A DNA stretch of 42,881 nucleotides from an uncultured Arenicella sp. GTDB taxonomy: Bacteria; Pseudomonadota; Gammaproteobacteria; Arenicellales; Arenicellaceae. Made by a program: the position numbers and the translations under genes. The DNA is taken from positions 1 to 42,881 of the forward strand of contig CALIVT010000011.1 in assembly GCA_938048185.1 (NCBI GenBank). The letters run 5' to 3'. This document shows, piece after piece, positions 19,057-37,731 of this stretch (positions are counted from its first letter, which is position 1; the number at the start of each line of letters is the position of its first letter). The notes under the pieces were generated by a model. That model was given only the letters and a program-made list of their open reading frames with translations. It made no database searches and was not told where the DNA came from.

Positions 19057-21111
19057 ATGTCCGCCGACAAGTCTCAACGCAAAATCCTAATCACCAACGC
19101 GCTGCCATACGCGAATGGCCCCTTACATCTAGGCCATATGGTGGGCTTTATGCAAGCCGATATCTGGGCTCGTTTTCAGAAAGTACGTGGGCATAAAGTG
19201 ACCTTTGTTGGTGGCGATGATCAACATGGCACGCCAATCATGTTGGGCGCAGAAGCGAAAGGCATAAGCCCACAGCAATTGATCGATGATACCGAAGCCT
19301 TGCACAAAGAGTCACTGACGGGGTTTTCCATCGACCTTGATAATTATACTGGCACACATCACCCCGAAAACCAGCGCATCAGCGCTGAAATTTACACCAA
19401 ATTGAAAGAACGCGGGCACATCGATGTGCGCGTGATCAAGCAAGCTTTTGATGAAGAAAAAGGCATGTTCTTGCCAGACCGCTACGTCAAAGGCACGTGC
19501 CCTAAATGCAAAGCAGCCGACCAATATGGCGACAACTGTGAAGTTTGTGGCACCACGTATGACACCACCGACTTAATTGACGCCTATTCGGTGTTGTCAG
19601 GTAAAGCCCCGATTGAAAAAGAGAGTGAGCACTACTTCTTTAAAGTCAGCGACTTTGAAAAAATGCTGCTCGAATGGAAGAACTCAGATGCTCTGCAACC
19701 CGAAATCGCCAACAAACTGGATGAATGGTTTGAAAGTGGTCTGATTGATTGGGACATAAGCCGAGATAAACCTTATTGGGGCTTTGAAATACCCGGTGCA
19801 CCCGGTAAATATTTTTACGTGTGGTTAGACGCACCGATTGGTTACATGGCAAGCCATCAAGTGCATTGCGAAAAAACTAACGACGATTGGCATAGCTATT
19901 GGAACGCCGACAGCGACGCCGAGCTCTATCACTTTATCGGTAAAGATATCGTGCGCTTCCACACCCTGTTTTGGCCCGCAATGCTTAAGGCCGTCGATTA
20001 TCGTCAACCGAATGGCGTGTTTGTACACGGGTTCTTAACCGTTGATGGCACTAAAATGTCTAAGACACGCGGCACCTTCATTATGGCCGAAACCTATCTC
20101 AAACATCTGAACCCAGAGTATTTGCGCTACTACTTTGCTGCCAAGCTAAGCAGCAGTGTGGTGGATATGGATTTAAATCTTGAAGATTTTTCAGCACGCG
20201 TAAATTCCGATATTGTCGGCAAGATGGTTAATATCGCCTCGCGTTGCGCGGGCTTTATAAGCAAGCGCTTTGACGGCATGCTGGCCGAAGAATCGGCCGC
20301 GCCTGAATTGCATGCTGAGTTTGCCGATGCTGCCGACAGTATTGCAGCGCGTTATGAAAAACGTGAATTCTCACAAGCAATGCGCGACATTATGGCGCTA
20401 GCAGATAAAGCTAATCAATTTATTGATGAACACAAACCGTGGATTCTAATTAAAGACGAAAGCAAGCTCGACGAAGTGCAGCAAATTTGTACCGCTGGTA
20501 TTAATGCTTTTCGCTCGTTGTGTATTTACCTAAAGCCGGTGTTGCCCAACTTAGTTGCCGACGCCGAAGTGTTTTTAAACGACGGTGAGTTGAACTGGAG
20601 CGACCTACAAACACCGTTACTCAAACATCAAATAAATAAATTTAAACCGCTTATAACACGCATTGAAAGTGAGTCTATCGAACGCATGGTTGAAGAAAGC
20701 AAAAAGTCCCTAGAACCAAAACCTGCGCAGAAAGACGCTGTAAACAATGAGCAAAGCACCGCGTTGGGGCAAGACCCAATCTCGCCTGAGATAAACTACG
20801 ATGAATTCGCCAAGGTTGACTTACGTATCGCCAAGATAATTAAAGCCGAGCATGTCGACGGCGCGGATAAATTATTGCAGTTGACCTTAGACATCGGTGG
20901 CGAAACGCGCAACGTATTCGCAGGCATTAAATCGGCCTATAAGCCTGAAGACTTAGAAGGCAAACTAACCGTCATGGTCGCAAATTTGGCGCCACGAAAG
21001 ATGCGCTTTGGTATGTCCGAAGGCATGGTGCTCGCCGCTGGCCCAGGCGGTTCTGATTTATTTGTGCTAAACCCTGATGACGGTGCTGAACCTGGCATGC
21101 GGGTTAAATAA
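19057..21111 (+). CDS. metG: Methionyl-tRNA synthetase MetG
   Basis: 684 residues, class I aminoacyl-tRNA synthetase. The HIGH motif appears as HLGH (24-27), the zinc knuckle as C148-x2-C151-x9-C161-x2-C164, and KMSKTRG near residue 332. The anticodon-binding domain ends near 545; a Lys/Glu/Gln-rich linker follows, then the C-terminal OB-fold tRNA-binding domain (about 580-684) with [17 protein letters not shown] and [12 protein letters not shown]. The long, dimer-type form is usual in gammaproteobacteria. rnfB follows by 39 bases. Confidence 0.98.
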
Positions 21112-21150
21112 ACGTCATTCGAATATCTAGAGTCGCCGCTAACAATAGCT

Positions 21151-21783
21151 ATGGAACGCGAAACAAAGATCAACGCCATCGACGAATGGTTGCCACAAAC
21201 CCAATGCACGCAATGCACTTATCCACGTTGCTATGATTACGCAGTGGCGATTGCCGATGGTGAAGCGGGCATAAACCAGTGTCCACCCGGTGGCGATGTT
21301 ACCGTTAGAGGGCTTGCGAGCTTACTTGGAAAAATCGGTAAGCCGGTCGACCCAAAATACGGAGTACATAAGCCAAAACAAGTCGCAGTCATCGACGAGG
21401 ATGCCTGTATTGGCTGTGTGATGTGTATTAAGGCCTGCCCGACCGATGCGATTATCGGTTCAGCTAAAGTGATGCATACGGTGATCGAGCGCGATTGCAC
21501 CGGCTGCGAGCTCTGTCTCGAACCTTGCCCCGTAGACTGCATAGACCTAGTGGATCAAATTCAAAATCCGGACCTAAATTGGCGTTGGGAAGATTACTCG
21601 CCGACTGCGACACAGCGCGCGCGTGAGCAGACTAATGCTAAGCTTGCACGCGAAGCAAAACGTAAAGAATCAAAAAGCTCAATGCGTAAACTTAAAGAGC
21701 TGCGCAAAGAAAAAGGCAGTGAGCAAATCAAACTTGATATTGCCGCGGCGATTGCGCGCGTCAAAGCGCGGGATGCACAATGA
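21151..21783 (+). CDS. RnfB/RsxB-type iron-sulfur protein, orphan
   Basis: 210 residues. The N-terminal Fe-S segment holds C19-x2-C22-x4-C27 and C44 (TQCTQCTYPRC, NQCPPGG). A double 4Fe-4S ferredoxin follows with C86/89/92/96 and C116/119/122/126. The membrane-anchoring helix of true RnfB is absent, and no rnfA, C, D, G or E is nearby, so this is the soluble orphan form known beside metG/nth in some beta- and gammaproteobacteria. The C-terminal 60 residues are a charged Lys/Arg/Glu helix. It probably serves as a ferredoxin-like electron donor, possibly for the adjacent Fe-S enzyme; that link is inference. Confidence 0.87.
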   Translation: MERETKINAIDEWLPQTQCTQCTYPRCYDYAVAIADGEAGINQCPPGGDVTVRGLASLLGKIGKPVDPKYGVHKPKQVAVIDEDACIGCVMCIKACPTDAIIGSAKVMHTVIERDCTGCELCLEPCPVDCIDLVDQIQNPDLNWRWEDYSPTATQRAREQTNAKLAREAKRKESKSSMRKLKELRKEKGSEQIKLDIAAAIARVKARDAQ

Positions 21784-21916
21784 AGCGACTACCCGCTTTG
21801 GGCTTTTTAATACGAGCTTTGGGCAATTTAATACGAGCTTTGGGCAATTTAAGACCAGCTTTGGGCAATTTAAGGCCAGCTTTCGGCAATTTAAGACCAG
21901 CTATAGACAATTATGA
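21773..21916 (+). other. Possible 47-codon ORF made of heptapeptide repeats
   Basis: An ATG at 21773, inside the rnfB tail in another frame, opens a 47-codon frame across the 21-bp repeat array. It encodes repeats of F-G-Q-F-[NK]-[TA]-S, and its TGA at 21914-21916 overlaps the nth ATG as ATGA. This geometry would allow translational coupling from rnfB to nth. Because the unit is a multiple of three, any frame lacking a stop in one unit stays open, so the ORF may be incidental. Confidence 0.2.
21790..21915. repeat. Six-copy 21-bp tandem repeat filling the rnfB-nth gap
   Basis: Units start at 21790, 21811, 21832, 21853, 21874 and 21895. Copies 2 and 3 are identical; copies 4 and 5 differ at two to four positions; the first and last are most diverged. 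The core is AGCTTTGGGCAATTTAA. The array begins six bases after the rnfB stop and its last unit contains the nth start codon, so nth has no separate Shine-Dalgarno. In the shared rnfB/nth frame most units carry a TAA stop. Confidence 0.95.
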
Positions 21917-22551
21917 ATAAGCAAAAGCGCTTTGAGATTTTTCGGCGTTTTCGTGAGGCTAACCCGAAGCCGGAAACCGAATTAAACTACAGCTCAAATT
22001 TCGAACTACTGGTCGCGGTGACCTTGTCGGCGCAAGCCACCGACGTCGGAGTGAATAAAGCCACGGCTAAACTTTTTCCAGTGGCGAACACACCTGAAGC
22101 TATATACGCCTTAGGAGTAGAGGGCCTGAGCGAGTATATAAAGACCATTGGCCTCTATAACAGCAAAGCCAAAAACGTGATTGCGGCCTGCAAAATGCTG
22201 ATCGAGCTGCACGACAGCATCGTACCGGAAGACCGCGAAGCCTTAGAAGCGCTACCGGGTGTTGGTCGCAAAACTGCGAATGTTGTATTGAATACTGCGT
22301 TTGGGCACGCTGCAATGGCCGTGGATACGCATATTTTCCGAGTATCCAACCGCACCAAGCTTGCGCCCGGCAAGACGGTATTAGCAGTCGAAAAAGCGTT
22401 AATGAAATTTGTACCTAAAGAATTTTTAGTCGATGCCCACCATTGGTTAATCCTACACGGCCGCTACACTTGCATTGCGCGCAAACCTCGTTGTGGTTCT
22501 TGCATCATTAGTGACCTATGCGATTACAAAGACAAACAAATAGATGATTAA
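21913..22551 (+). CDS. nth: Endonuclease III (base-excision DNA glycosylase/AP lyase)
   Basis: 212 residues, matching E. coli Nth in length and numbering. The helix-hairpin-helix LPGVGRKTANV contains the catalytic K120, D138 lies in VDTH, and the C-terminal 4Fe-4S loop is C187-x6-C194-x2-C197-x5-C203. It removes oxidised pyrimidines and cleaves abasic sites. The ATG lies within the last unit of the 21-bp repeat array. The FIST gene overlaps the 3' end by eight bases, indicating co-transcription. Confidence 0.97.
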   Translation: MNKQKRFEIFRRFREANPKPETELNYSSNFELLVAVTLSAQATDVGVNKATAKLFPVANTPEAIYALGVEGLSEYIKTIGLYNSKAKNVIAACKMLIELHDSIVPEDREALEALPGVGRKTANVVLNTAFGHAAMAVDTHIFRVSNRTKLAPGKTVLAVEKALMKFVPKEFLVDAHHWLILHGRYTCIARKPRCGSCIISDLCDYKDKQIDD

Positions 22552-23632
22552 ACGACGAGTCGCCACCGGTGTTAGCTACGGCGCTACAGCGAAAGACGAA
22601 TATGCGCGCGAAGCTGTGCAAGATGCGCTAAAAAAAATGCGCCCATGCACCGTAGGCAGCGTTCTGCTTTTCCTTAGTAGCGCCTATGCACACAATCCGC
22701 AGAACGCGATCAAAGAAGCTGCCAAGGCCGCAGGCACCCCACAGGTATTCGGTTGCTGTGCCATGGGGTTGCTAACCGAGCAAGAGTGGTTAATCGACGC
22801 CGAAGGTGCGGTCGCGATGGTGTTCCCGCAAGAACTTGGTTTACAACCACTGCGTGTCTTGAAACCACAGGGCATATCACCTGATTTGGTATTTACCTTG
22901 GCCAGTCCGAACGCCGCGGATATCGCCATGAACTCCTGCGACTCCGTTCAATTTGGCTCGGTAACCAATGATGAATATGGCCAAGGCCCCTACTCTGTCT
23001 GGCAAAGCGGCCGTATTGTCGAGCAAGAGTTTAGCCAAACCGTATTCAGTCAATCCTTACAGTCTGAACTGTTGCTAGCTGAGGGCATTGAGCGCTTATC
23101 GCCTATCATGCAAGTCAATAAGGTTAGAGGCAACAAACTGTTAGAGATAAACCAACAAACCGCGAGTAACAACATTCGCGGTCACGTGAGTATCGATTCG
23201 CCGTTTGATCTGTTTTGCGCGGTGTCCGAAACGAGTAGTCCAGAATCAATCATAGAGGGTCACTATTCTCTGGTGCATGTGATTTCAGTCGACACTGAGA
23301 CTAACCAAATCACCTTAGCCGACGAAGTTAAAGCCGGGCGACATATTTTTTGGGCCAGACGCAACACCAACTCAGCGCAAGCAAGCATCGAAACCGAGCT
23401 TGCTAAAGCACGCAAGCGACTCAACAAAGAACCAGAATTTGGCCTCATGTTTCCGAATGTAAGCCGCGGCCCCGAATTTTTTGGCGGTATCGACATGGAC
23501 CTTGAAGCATTCAAACAATGCTTTCCAGACACGCCATTGATTGGCTTTTATGGTAACACCGAGATAGCGCCTGGTTTTAAAATGCCGGCCTTAGCGCGTC
23601 ATCATGCGACGGTCTCAGTTTTATTCGCATGA
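22544..23632 (+). CDS. FIST domain sensory protein
   Basis: 362 residues with FIST_N (about 1-215) followed by FIST_C (about 220-345). Typical segments are the N-terminal ATGVSYGATAKDE, TPQVFGCCAMGLLTE, and the C-terminal FPNVSRGPEFFGGIDMDLEAF then PLIGFYGNTEIAPG. FIST domains are proposed to bind small ligands, perhaps amino acids, and are often fused to kinases or cyclases; here the protein is stand-alone. It overlaps nth by eight bases and may overlap arsS at its end. The ligand is unknown. Confidence 0.85.
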   Translation: MIKRRVATGVSYGATAKDEYAREAVQDALKKMRPCTVGSVLLFLSSAYAHNPQNAIKEAAKAAGTPQVFGCCAMGLLTEQEWLIDAEGAVAMVFPQELGLQPLRVLKPQGISPDLVFTLASPNAADIAMNSCDSVQFGSVTNDEYGQGPYSVWQSGRIVEQEFSQTVFSQSLQSELLLAEGIERLSPIMQVNKVRGNKLLEINQQTASNNIRGHVSIDSPFDLFCAVSETSSPESIIEGHYSLVHVISVDTETNQITLADEVKAGRHIFWARRNTNSAQASIETELAKARKRLNKEPEFGLMFPNVSRGPEFFGGIDMDLEAFKQCFPDTPLIGFYGNTEIAPGFKMPALARHHATVSVLFA

Positions 23633-35121: not shown

Positions 35122-37731
35122 TTAACGGCTTACGCTCGCGACATAGGTTTGCGACATAGGTTTAAATTTCGCCACCAACATCGGCAGCATAACCAAATTA
35201 GCAATCAAGGCTGTAACCATCGCTAATCCAGTCAAAACCCCAAAGTACATGGTTGGCACAAAGTTAGAAAACACCATAATCAAAAAGCCCGACGTGATAA
35301 CCAAGGTGGTGTAAAACATAGCCTGACCTACGTTATTGGTAGCCTGGGAAATCGCAACGCTATCATCATTTTTTGCGAGCATCTCGTTCTTAAAACGATC
35401 AATAAAATGGATAGAGTTGTCGACCGCAATACCAACACTAATGGCCGCAATAGTAATGGTCATTAAGTCTAACGGAATACGAAAAACACCCATCACTCCG
35501 AGTACTACGCTGGCCGAAAACACATTCGGAATAATGGTGATAAGTGCCAGTTTAAAACTACGAAACAAGACAATAAACATCAAGAAAATCACGACAAACA
35601 CAGTACCAAGCGTGAGAATCTGAGAACTAAACAGTGAATTCAACATGTTGTTGTACAGCACCAACATTCCTGAGATATTAATTTGCTCGTCGGCAAGACC
35701 GTGTTCCTCTATGAGCATGCGACGAATATCAGCAATCAATTTATTTCGGTCTAAACCTTTAAGCGTTTCGAACACCCTGATATTGATATGCAGTTGGTTA
35801 CCATCATCTGACACGTATGGCTTAAACAACGTTTCTTTGTTTGCATCTGACAACACGTTCAACATAAACGCCAAATCGATATTGTCCATCGGCTTGGCAT
35901 TTTTCAAACCATCAAAGACACTCATAGTCGTGGCCAGGCTCATAACCTTGCCGGTTGCTGGAATCGCATCTAACGACTTTTGTATAGCTTGAATTTTGCG
36001 CAAGCCTTGTTCATTAAACCAATAAGACGTTGCAACAATATTGGGCGAACTAGATGCGTCATCAAATTCGTCAAACTCATCCTCGAATTCGTCTTCGAAG
36101 TCGTCAAAGTCATCGTCAACAGCAAGCGTATCTTCTGCGATCTCAACGGGTTGATCAACGCCCGAATTTAGCGTTTCAAGAAATTCTTTAGGCGCGTCAA
36201 TGATGATATCCAACGGCGTGGTGCCCCCAAGTTTGGCATCGATTTCAACCATGCCCTGATAAATTTCAGTCTCGGGCTTAAAGTAGTCAATAAAGCGATT
36301 TTCAACCGTTAAGTTGGCGATACCATAACCGGCCAATCCAACGATGCCGAGAAAAACAACAGCAACTAAAGAGCCTTGACGATGCAGTACTTGAGCGCCA
36401 GAGAGCACAACACGACTGATCGCGTCTTTATTGGTCGCTACTTGCCTTGGCTTCATCATGACTGACAACGCGGGAAACAGGGTAAAGGTCGTAATAACCG
36501 CAACGACTATCCCAAGGCACATGATCCAGCCGAAATCGATCACGGGCCGAATACCGCTTACAATCAGCGATGCAAACGCGACAATCGTGGTCAGCGCGGT
36601 GTAGATACACGGAATAAGCTTTGAGCGTATTGTTTGGCTCAATAAAGCGCGTTGATCGGCATCTGGCTGCAACTTTGCAAGCTCTCGGTAACGCACAATT
36701 AAGTGGATGTTGAGCGACAGTGTGATGATCAACAATAGAGATAGAAAATTAGATGACACCACTGAAATCGGCCAGTTCAGCAAGCCGAGTAAACCGACCA
36801 TCACGTAGCCCGTGGCCGCACAGGTCAACAACGGCATCACCACCCAACCAAGCTGGCGAAAGGCCACCGCGAGTATGAAAACTATCAACGCTAGGGATGC
36901 AAGACCGAAAACTCTAAAGTCGGAATTGATGAAGTTCACTGAATCCGCAACAATCATCGGCAAGCCACCTAAAAACAGTTTTGCATTGGCTTGATACGGT
37001 TTAATGATGCCTCGTACTTCGGCGATCATTGCACTCTGAGACGCTTTGTATGCGTCGTCTTTTGCCTGATACTCTACGCTAATTGCCGTTAGTTCAGCTT
37101 CTTGTTCAGCACTCCATTGCTCACCGGCACGCAGCGCTCTCTCACCGGCACGCAGCGCTCTTAGCGAATCGCGTTTATCCAGCAGGCTTGCGACTTCTTC
37201 ATTGGCTTTTAAAGAGACAACAATTGCGGTGGTAGATAGGTCATTGCTCACCAGCAAGTCACGATACAAATCACTGGTCAAGAATTCTTTCTTAGCGAGT
37301 TCACGGTCGGTTACGTCATCAAGCAGTGTCTGCTGAGAGCTGGCCAACTCGCCTAGGGTTACCGGCGGGCTTTGGGTTAGCGGCGCGTCAATGATCGAAA
37401 TAATCGAATCCGCTTCGTCTAAGCCGAGCAGCTCTTCACGAAGCTTGGCGATATCGGCCAAAGTCTCGTCGCTGAACAAATCCCCGTTGGGTGAATAGGT
37501 TAAAATCAACAATTCTTTGCCACTATATTTAGTCACAACATCGCGAAAATACTTTAACGACTGATCATTTTCTAGAACTAAGGAGTCAGAGGATGTATCC
37601 AAGCGAAAGTCATCTAAAAATGGGAACAAGGTGGCTAGAATGAGCACAAACGCCATTAACACCCATTTTGAGTGCTGAAATACTAATGAGTCGTAAAATG
37701 AATGCTTCGTGGGGATCGTGGTTTGAGACAT
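35122..37731 (-). CDS. MMPL/RND superfamily exporter
   Basis: 869 residues from the ATG at 37731; a GTG at 37782 would add 17. It has two MMPL halves: TM1 (about 20-40), a periplasmic domain, five helices including LIVFILAVAFRQL, then TM7, a second periplasmic domain and SVGIAVDNSIHFIDRF, the SSD-like helix with the proton-relay Asp. A hydrophobe-exporting role (lipids, hopanoids) is a family expectation. Odd features are a perfect 21-bp internal duplication (RALRAGE twice) near residue 200, a DDFDDFEDEFEDEFDEFDD acidic run in the second periplasmic domain, and a 13-bp duplication at the C-terminus. Confidence 0.88.
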   Translation of the reverse strand: MSQTTIPTKHSFYDSLVFQHSKWVLMAFVLILATLFPFLDDFRLDTSSDSLVLENDQSLKYFRDVVTKYSGKELLILTYSPNGDLFSDETLADIAKLREELLGLDEADSIISIIDAPLTQSPPVTLGELASSQQTLLDDVTDRELAKKEFLTSDLYRDLLVSNDLSTTAIVVSLKANEEVASLLDKRDSLRALRAGERALRAGEQWSAEQEAELTAISVEYQAKDDAYKASQSAMIAEVRGIIKPYQANAKLFLGGLPMIVADSVNFINSDFRVFGLASLALIVFILAVAFRQLGWVVMPLLTCAATGYVMVGLLGLLNWPISVVSSNFLSLLLIITLSLNIHLIVRYRELAKLQPDADQRALLSQTIRSKLIPCIYTALTTIVAFASLIVSGIRPVIDFGWIMCLGIVVAVITTFTLFPALSVMMKPRQVATNKDAISRVVLSGAQVLHRQGSLVAVVFLGIVGLAGYGIANLTVENRFIDYFKPETEIYQGMVEIDAKLGGTTPLDIIIDAPKEFLETLNSGVDQPVEIAEDTLAVDDDFDDFEDEFEDEFDEFDDASSSPNIVATSYWFNEQGLRKIQAIQKSLDAIPATGKVMSLATTMSVFDGLKNAKPMDNIDLAFMLNVLSDANKETLFKPYVSDDGNQLHINIRVFETLKGLDRNKLIADIRRMLIEEHGLADEQINISGMLVLYNNMLNSLFSSQILTLGTVFVVIFLMFIVLFRSFKLALITIIPNVFSASVVLGVMGVFRIPLDLMTITIAAISVGIAVDNSIHFIDRFKNEMLAKNDDSVAISQATNNVGQAMFYTTLVITSGFLIMVFSNFVPTMYFGVLTGLAMVTALIANLVMLPMLVAKFKPMSQTYVASVSR
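35138..35163. repeat. Perfect 13-bp tandem duplication at the MMPL C-terminus
   Basis: GCGACATAGGTTT twice without mismatch, 35138-35150 and 35151-35163, inside the last 15 codons of the MMPL gene. Not a multiple of three, so it shifted the reading frame of the tail when it arose. Confidence 0.95.
37120..37161. repeat. Perfect 21-bp tandem duplication within the MMPL gene
   Basis: CTCACCGGCACGCAGCGCTC plus T occurs twice, 37120-37140 and 37141-37161, with no mismatch. It doubles the peptide RALRAGE in a charged helical segment of the first periplasmic domain. Confidence 0.95.

Follow-up and report, generated by a model that had tools for sequence, protein, structure and literature searches.

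A 21-base tandem array between rnfB and nth is probably one member of a dispersed repeat family with a paired core

Introduction

Between two genes that an earlier note read as rnfB and nth lies a tandem array of 21-bp units, and the question raised by this locus is whether the array does anything for the gene that follows it. The note, made from the window (the whole stretch of 42,881 nucleotides that was analysed), offered three readings: a coupling device, a copy-number-variable tuner of nth expression, or an incidental minisatellite. The answer that we consider quite probable is a different kind of membership: the array would belong to a tandem-repeat family dispersed throughout one genus (probably gammaproteobacterial), whose paired core would be kept as a short stem-loop and whose presence at nth would be incidental.

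Results

The existence of the array was confirmed, with six units in exact register, and Tandem Repeats Finder reports a period of 21, 5.3 copies and 90% matches at 21791-21902. Its first base comes 7 bases past the end of rnfB and its last is the fourth base of nth, so that the nth start codon lies within the last unit, as the note had claimed. Measured against the consensus ACCAGCTTTGGGCAATTTAAG, the units differ, from left to right, at 4, 2, 1, 0, 2 and 7 positions; the outermost units are therefore indeed the most diverged (4 and 7 differences vs 0 to 2 in the middle), and divergence rising outward is the usual minisatellite picture, with the youngest units in the centre. The features of the locus are:

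21151 to 21783, forward strand: upstream neighbour, 210 amino acids, rnfB in the earlier reading
21623 to 21916, forward strand: open frame of the earlier note, 97 codons
21780 to 21784, forward strand: ATGAA at the end of rnfB, with a second copy at 21913 to 21917 at the start of nth
21780 to 21920, forward strand: candidate small ORF, 46 amino acids, a predicted frame whose ATGA overlaps the rnfB stop
21791 to 21916, forward strand: array of six 21-bp units (21791-21811, 21812-21832, 21833-21853, 21854-21874, 21875-21895 and 21896-21916)
21795 to 21806, forward strand: diverged first core, with non-complementary arms TT/TT
21816 to 21827, 21837 to 21848, 21858 to 21869 and 21879 to 21890, forward strand: four GCT-TT-NGGC-AA-T cores, the last with CGGC
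21900 to 21911, forward strand: degenerate sixth core, GCTATAGACAAT, adjoining the nth start codon
21913 to 22551, forward strand: downstream neighbour, 212 amino acids, nth (endonuclease III) in the earlier reading

A structured RNA leader was rejected: the array and its flanks fold no better than shuffles (z -0.04), and an Rfam covariance-model search of 21000-22600 gave no match up to E = 1. Terminator-like sites number 4, compared with 2.6 in shuffles, and the one at 21781-21800 is weak. The array is flanked by a 9-base perfect inverted repeat (TCAAAGCGC at 21761-21769 and GCGCTTTGA at 21927-21935), to which nothing corresponds among the longest inverted repeats of each related locus. Elsewhere in the window, at 37120-37161, there is a perfect two-copy 21-base tandem repeat, CTCACCGGCACGCAGCGCTCT, without the core described below.

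The open frame reported in the earlier note exists, running from a GTG within rnfB to a TGA on the nth start. If there is a small ORF, the candidate at 21780-21920, which ends with TAA 5 bases after the nth ATG, would be better placed than the frame at 21623-21916; a minus-strand frame (21761-21910) is likewise open. Open frames run through the array because 21 is a multiple of 3, and since at least one forward frame is open in 99% of random 21-mers of the window repeated in tandem, an open frame here is not evidence of coding. We counted synonymous and non-synonymous changes between units in all six frames, a comparison that the note had proposed: 4 of 16 changes are synonymous in its own frame (vs 11 of 63 possible changes), 3 of 16 in the ATGA frame (vs 16 of 63) and 7 of 16 in one minus-strand frame, LNCPKLV (vs 15 of 63). 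Neither long forward frame is favoured by what is, with 16 changes, a weak test, and the small-ORF reading was rejected for its lack of a synonymous excess in either.

These frames bear on the possibility that ribosomes leaving rnfB restart on the ATGA-linked 46-codon ORF and then on nth, with the number of repeats setting nth output. The start of the small ORF on the rnfB stop and its own stop just inside nth suit such a device, as does the failure to find any sigma-70-like site in 20900-22700, which fits nth being read from upstream; against it, the between-unit changes bear no mark of protein-level constraint, in the same weak test.

An nth match was found in all 61 genomes searched (in some, a weak paralogue only), and 30 nth loci were compared, one being the window itself and 17 of the 29 others belonging to congeners, with one genome per species. 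The 21-base array is absent from the rnfB-nth gap at all 29 related loci, including those of all 17 congeners, and the gap measures -11 to 68 bases (-4 to 68 among congeners). Three of the loci (L023, L025 and L028) have weak tandem repeats of other kinds. In 11 of the 29 relatives, three of them congeners, rnfB and nth overlap as ATGA (a gap of -4), which on its own would favour coupling; because none of these loci has an array, the array is not the source of that coupling, which may persist across it. Removing the 133 bases between the window's two ATGAA copies yields the same overlap, as in relatives such as L018, and an ATGA junction is a plausible ancestral state before the array. Against such a state, rnfB and nth stand 14 to 68 bases apart, without an ATGA overlap, in L008-L011, the four closest congeners in a two-protein tree whose support around the window species is weak (0.23); nth would therefore not need the overlap. 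With no array at any of the 29 related loci, and with other arrays of the family between convergent genes or inside genes, where coupling would be senseless, the readings as coupling device and expression tuner are weak, and we rate a device of this kind as improbable. Among the three suggestions of the earlier note, the incidental minisatellite comes nearest, the array being missing from the gaps of all 17 congeners compared.

The nth ATG in the last unit is very probably the correct start, judging from the alignments: these begin at residue 1 for 28 of 29 related nth genes and at residue 9 for L029, and ATG or GTG stands at this position in the related loci viewed. The note had also pointed out that nth has no independent ribosome binding site. 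This is no special feature of the array, since 2 of 29 relatives have a Shine-Dalgarno-like four-mer ahead of nth; such a four-mer was found before 79 of 306 roughly called genes of the window's genome (vs 24 of 306 in a control stretch). Because so few relatives and about a quarter of the genome's genes have one, its lack before nth is ordinary here.

The wider genome offers a family to which the array probably belongs. A 425-kb sample of the window's genome contains further tandem arrays, of 16 to 21 bases and in several cases based on GCTCARGGCTGT; when the sampled arrays were overlaid on the window unit, GCT--RGGC--T was common to them, and the letters that differed changed in complementary pairs. 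The family unit is a 12-base core, GCT-xy-RGGC-y'x'-T, followed by a spacer of array-specific length, and across the family, as in the window array, the core is followed by T and then an A/T-rich stretch. Modal unit length is 17 to 26 bases, most often 18; it is largely a property of the individual array and varies from one array to the next.

We searched the genus with the arms left free and hand-chose 80 places among the matches listed, which with 40 stretches of the window's own genome and the window made a sample of 121 stretches from 15 genus genomes; G005, G006, G007 and many listed places were left out of it, and some CA arrays came from a search with arms fixed. The sample held 85 arrays of at least three units, and 7 of the 80 chosen places had no array of that size. 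Of these 85, which are partly non-independent (seven pairs share flanking DNA), 74 have modal arms xy and y'x' that complement each other, compared with a mean of 27 and a maximum of 40 when the right arms were shuffled. Seven paired types occur (GA/TC 34, CA/TG 28, AA/TT 6, GT/AC 3, and TT/AA, TA/TA and CT/AG 1 each), the window's TT/AA being one of the three seen once, and the 11 arrays with unpaired modal arms comprise AA/TC 4, CA/TA 1 and six single oddities. Pairing does not depend on the commonest types: 46 of 56 arrays were paired after exclusion of CA/TG (mean 26.6 in shuffles), and 12 of 22 after exclusion of both CA/TG and GA/TC (mean 4.5), a count reached by none of 10,000 shuffles; one doubtful, unpaired plus-strand array (L127) was dropped from these subset tests. 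Two large CA-type arrays with the same spacer, L132 (8-332) and L143, lie at the ends of contigs C22 and C19 and could be two parts of one array that assembly failed to join; arrays may interrupt assemblies in this way and hence be undercounted.

Column by column, the largest complementarity excess of all pairs falls on columns 4 and 11 (77 complementary vs 33 expected). Columns 5 and 10 add less (82 vs 71) because column 5 is mostly A, and one column pair only varies freely; most other high-scoring pairs are columns one repeat period apart. Single cores outside arrays are paired in 11 of 74 cases, and controls gave 4 to 12.5% (the highest, 5 of 40); with pairing hardly enriched there, no seed stage was seen. 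Nor is pairing a by-product of coding, because 52 of 57 arrays outside genes are paired, a share no smaller than the 22 of 28 inside them. Such paired change suggests, from the sequences compared, that the core folds as a single strand. The window's genome also has nearly nine copies of a 48-base repeat without the family core (L120, 14039-14458).

If one strand folds, it is perhaps the complement of GCT, A-xy-GCCY-y'x'-AGC. The AA/TC and CA/TA arms give mismatches on the GCT strand and G-U pairs on the complementary one, and the core letter R (A in 202 and G in 222 of 444 units) would form A-C or G-C on the former and G-U or G-C on the latter. The choice of strand comes to 5 arrays vs 0 (two-sided p 0.06), or 31 vs 9 by units, which counts the same arrays repeatedly; single changes inside arrays show no strand bias (GC to GT 4, GC to AC 4). 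A stem of two or three pairs would be barely stable alone.

The same core could instead be a palindromic, operator-like site in duplex DNA, repeated in tandem and bound by a genus-specific protein. The stretch xyG..Cy'x' is palindromic around GG when R = G, the sites do stand in tandem, and the constant letters are strongly conserved, albeit partly fixed by the search pattern. However, a half-site that tolerates any x would not require a matching x', R = A in 202 of the 444 units disrupts the third pair of the palindrome, T stands at both position 3 and position 12, and the spacings (17 to 26 bases) show no helical regularity. The arrays, moreover, lie inside genes as well and rarely between divergent ones (4 of 47 gap arrays). 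We rate binding sites of this kind as likewise improbable.

Rough gene calls place 47 arrays in gaps, the other 38 overlapping genes. For 38 of the gap arrays both neighbours are in view, and the flanking genes are convergent in 13 cases, in the same direction in 21 and divergent in 4. A stricter rule places 28 arrays inside long open frames and 57 outside, and spacings are divisible by 3 in all 28 in-gene arrays vs 22 of 57 elsewhere. Orientations are mixed, with 10 arrays along and 11 against transcription in same-direction gaps, and 11 sense and 17 antisense inside genes, which disfavours a function at the level of mRNA. The 11 sense arrays encode AEGS-type repeats and the 17 antisense mostly EPSA or SPE-type, the encoded repeats being mostly of 6-8 residues (e.g., AEGSLP and KEPSAD). 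GA-type arrays are found inside genes more often than CA-type (19 of 34 vs 3 of 28, p 0.0004), a difference that may be explained by the TGA that a CA core can hold on one strand. At seven places (L150, L158, L159, L160, L162, L206 and L214) the gene next to the array, on the complementary strand, extends exactly 10 bases into the array's end, which would fit a stop codon supplied by the TGA of a CA-type core. GC skew of the GCT strand gave mixed signs (8 positive, 4 negative) and was set aside.

In the genomes searched, the family is nearly confined to the genus. Tandem pairs of CA-type number 79 in the window's genome and occur in 12 of 17 congeners and in none of 43 genomes outside the genus; GA-type pairs number 25 and occur in 16 of 17 congeners and in 1 of 43 outside, that one a genome of the same taxonomic family. 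All 18 genus genomes have a CA-type pair, a GA-type pair or both, and reversed-pattern controls gave zero for both searches, which makes these exact pairs firmer evidence than arms-free counts. The arms-free pattern gave about 94 matches in 82 genomes outside the genus, fewer than its reversed control, and thus no sign of a wider distribution; one of these genomes, G033, had 7 matches vs 2 in the control. Within the genus the arms-free reversed controls gave 8 and 7 matches in all, and the low counts of G006 and G015 could be chance. At least 20 arrays lie in the window's genome, between genes and in frame inside genes. GA-type pairs were absent from viral contigs; one contig of the viral collection (L217, 2527-2559) has a CA-type tandem pair within an apparent coding stretch and may be bacterial DNA filed as viral.

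How well does the array at nth fit this family? Three of its units have the exact paired core, a fourth has C for R, and the first keeps all constants with unpaired arms; the arms are thus TT/AA in four of the five units detected and TT/TT in the outermost, the sixth being too degenerate for detection. Core matches in the window number 5, and shuffled windows average 0.15. Among 400,000 random tandem units of 21 bases, a paired core turned up on one strand or the other in only 40, and a chance fit is therefore unlikely. The kinship rests on the core pattern, since TT-type arms occur in tandem nowhere else in the 18 genus genomes; the array's sequence is unique within its genome, its two-unit pattern occurs in 1 of 100 genomes (the window's own), and the one spacer feature common to it and other arrays is a T/A-rich start. 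Searches for the window array in plasmids, phages and E. coli genomes, and for its two-unit pattern in viral contigs, found nothing, and a mobile-element origin was set aside for this reason; two-unit patterns of the nth unit also had no match in a genome contig collection that possibly lacks near relatives.

That solitary arm type, together with the lack of matches in all these collections, is what an ordinary, unrelated minisatellite would show, one arisen by slippage from local or borrowed sequence and resembling the other arrays by chance. Such an origin gains from a match of 21 of 22 bases between the window unit and another contig of the same genome (G000:C29:68162-68183; L005 about 1497-1518; L063), on the antisense strand of a gene for a 513-residue protein that we take, by reading of the protein, to be citramalate/isopropylmalate synthase; the array's sequence may thus come from an ordinary gene. 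About 2 in 100,000 would be expected to match so well at random, and the reversed-pattern control gave 4 matches in 100 genomes at up to 3 mismatches. The stretch is native to this synthase-like gene, since 14 of 15 aligned relatives encode RPxLxDY-like residues there, with other codons (L079 has an insertion); the array may have been derived from this gene, or the resemblance may be fortuitous, given how many comparisons were made. Against an unrelated origin stand the three units with all core constants and complementary arms (the fourth one loop base off, with the random rate given above), the T and A/T-rich stretch that follow the core as in the family, and the many family arrays of the same genome. 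We therefore regard it as unlikely, if somewhat less so than the coupling device or the binding sites, and treat the window array as a probable family member in what follows.

Discussion

The array at nth is itself probably incidental, and the family is the main finding. On the reading that we favour, the core would be maintained as a tiny stem-loop formed by one strand, possibly the complement of GCT, and arrays would grow and shrink through slippage or unequal recombination, new ones being seeded by a copying step of unspecified kind. Their presence would be tolerated between genes, frequently at the ends of genes, and also in frame. The array at rnfB-nth is probably younger than the split of its species from the sampled congeners, and it perhaps arose where the two genes had overlapped as ATGA; the open frames through it may incidentally preserve stop-start translation into nth. 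We found no enzyme or spreading mechanism for the family arrays. A more speculative proposal, which we put forward tentatively and hold to be rather doubtful, is that an undescribed system of the genus recognises a minimal stem-loop core in single-strand form, A-xy-GCCY-y'x'-AGC, and both copies it to new sites and amplifies it there in tandem, the arms being kept complementary by selection or by the mechanism itself while their letters drift, and that arrays could be founded even from a native core-like stretch of a gene, as the near-perfect match with the synthase-like gene hints.

Several known repeats resemble the family in part. Bacterial minisatellites and VNTRs have a similar unit length, central units that are most alike and a presence that differs between species, but we know of no ordinary VNTRs in which many loci have a single core in common and vary it by matched pairs of changes. 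REP/BIME elements, which are associated with RAYT (Y1) transposases, are likewise small palindromic units, often repeated and found mainly in gene gaps, but their stems are longer and carry a conserved tetranucleotide. A Y1 (PF01797) match was found in 13 of 18 genus genomes; a REP/RAYT system was rejected because two nearly complete genomes, G004 (98%) and G014 (99%), carry arrays and gave no Y1 match.

TAACTGA direct repeats (PMC4679880) are intergenic repeats of a fixed heptamer, patchy across phyla (marine Beggiatoaceae, some Cyanobacteria, Bacteroidetes) and, in one genome, located for the most part immediately ahead of start codons. They share with the present family a short core, many tandem sets scattered through the genome and no evident spreading mechanism; here, by contrast, the core has 12 bases, spacers are array-specific, variable arms are complementary, arrays are often in genes and the family is near-confined to one genus among the genomes searched. 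The heptamer is absent from the six units of the window array. PARCEL (PMC2996958) is a 25-residue (75-base) tandem coding motif in ORFs of distant taxa, similar in its DNA dyad symmetry, its repeated peptides and its dispersal within genomes. Membership was rejected: modal units here have 17-26 bases rather than 75, encoded repeats are mostly far shorter, and 57 of 85 arrays lie outside long frames, coding being an occasional consequence. In the titles and abstracts of the literature searched, a body that leaves most subscription literature outside, the family core is undescribed, and literal searches for six 12-base core forms returned, among the matches listed, papers all unrelated by title.

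If the paired changes hold, this would be a dispersed bacterial repeat that conserves a tiny fold as much as a sequence, and something in these cells would read or make that fold. The arrays that run in frame inside genes bear on the origin of new repetitive protein linkers, and the many arrays in 18 species would make the genus a natural system for the birth and spread of bacterial minisatellites.
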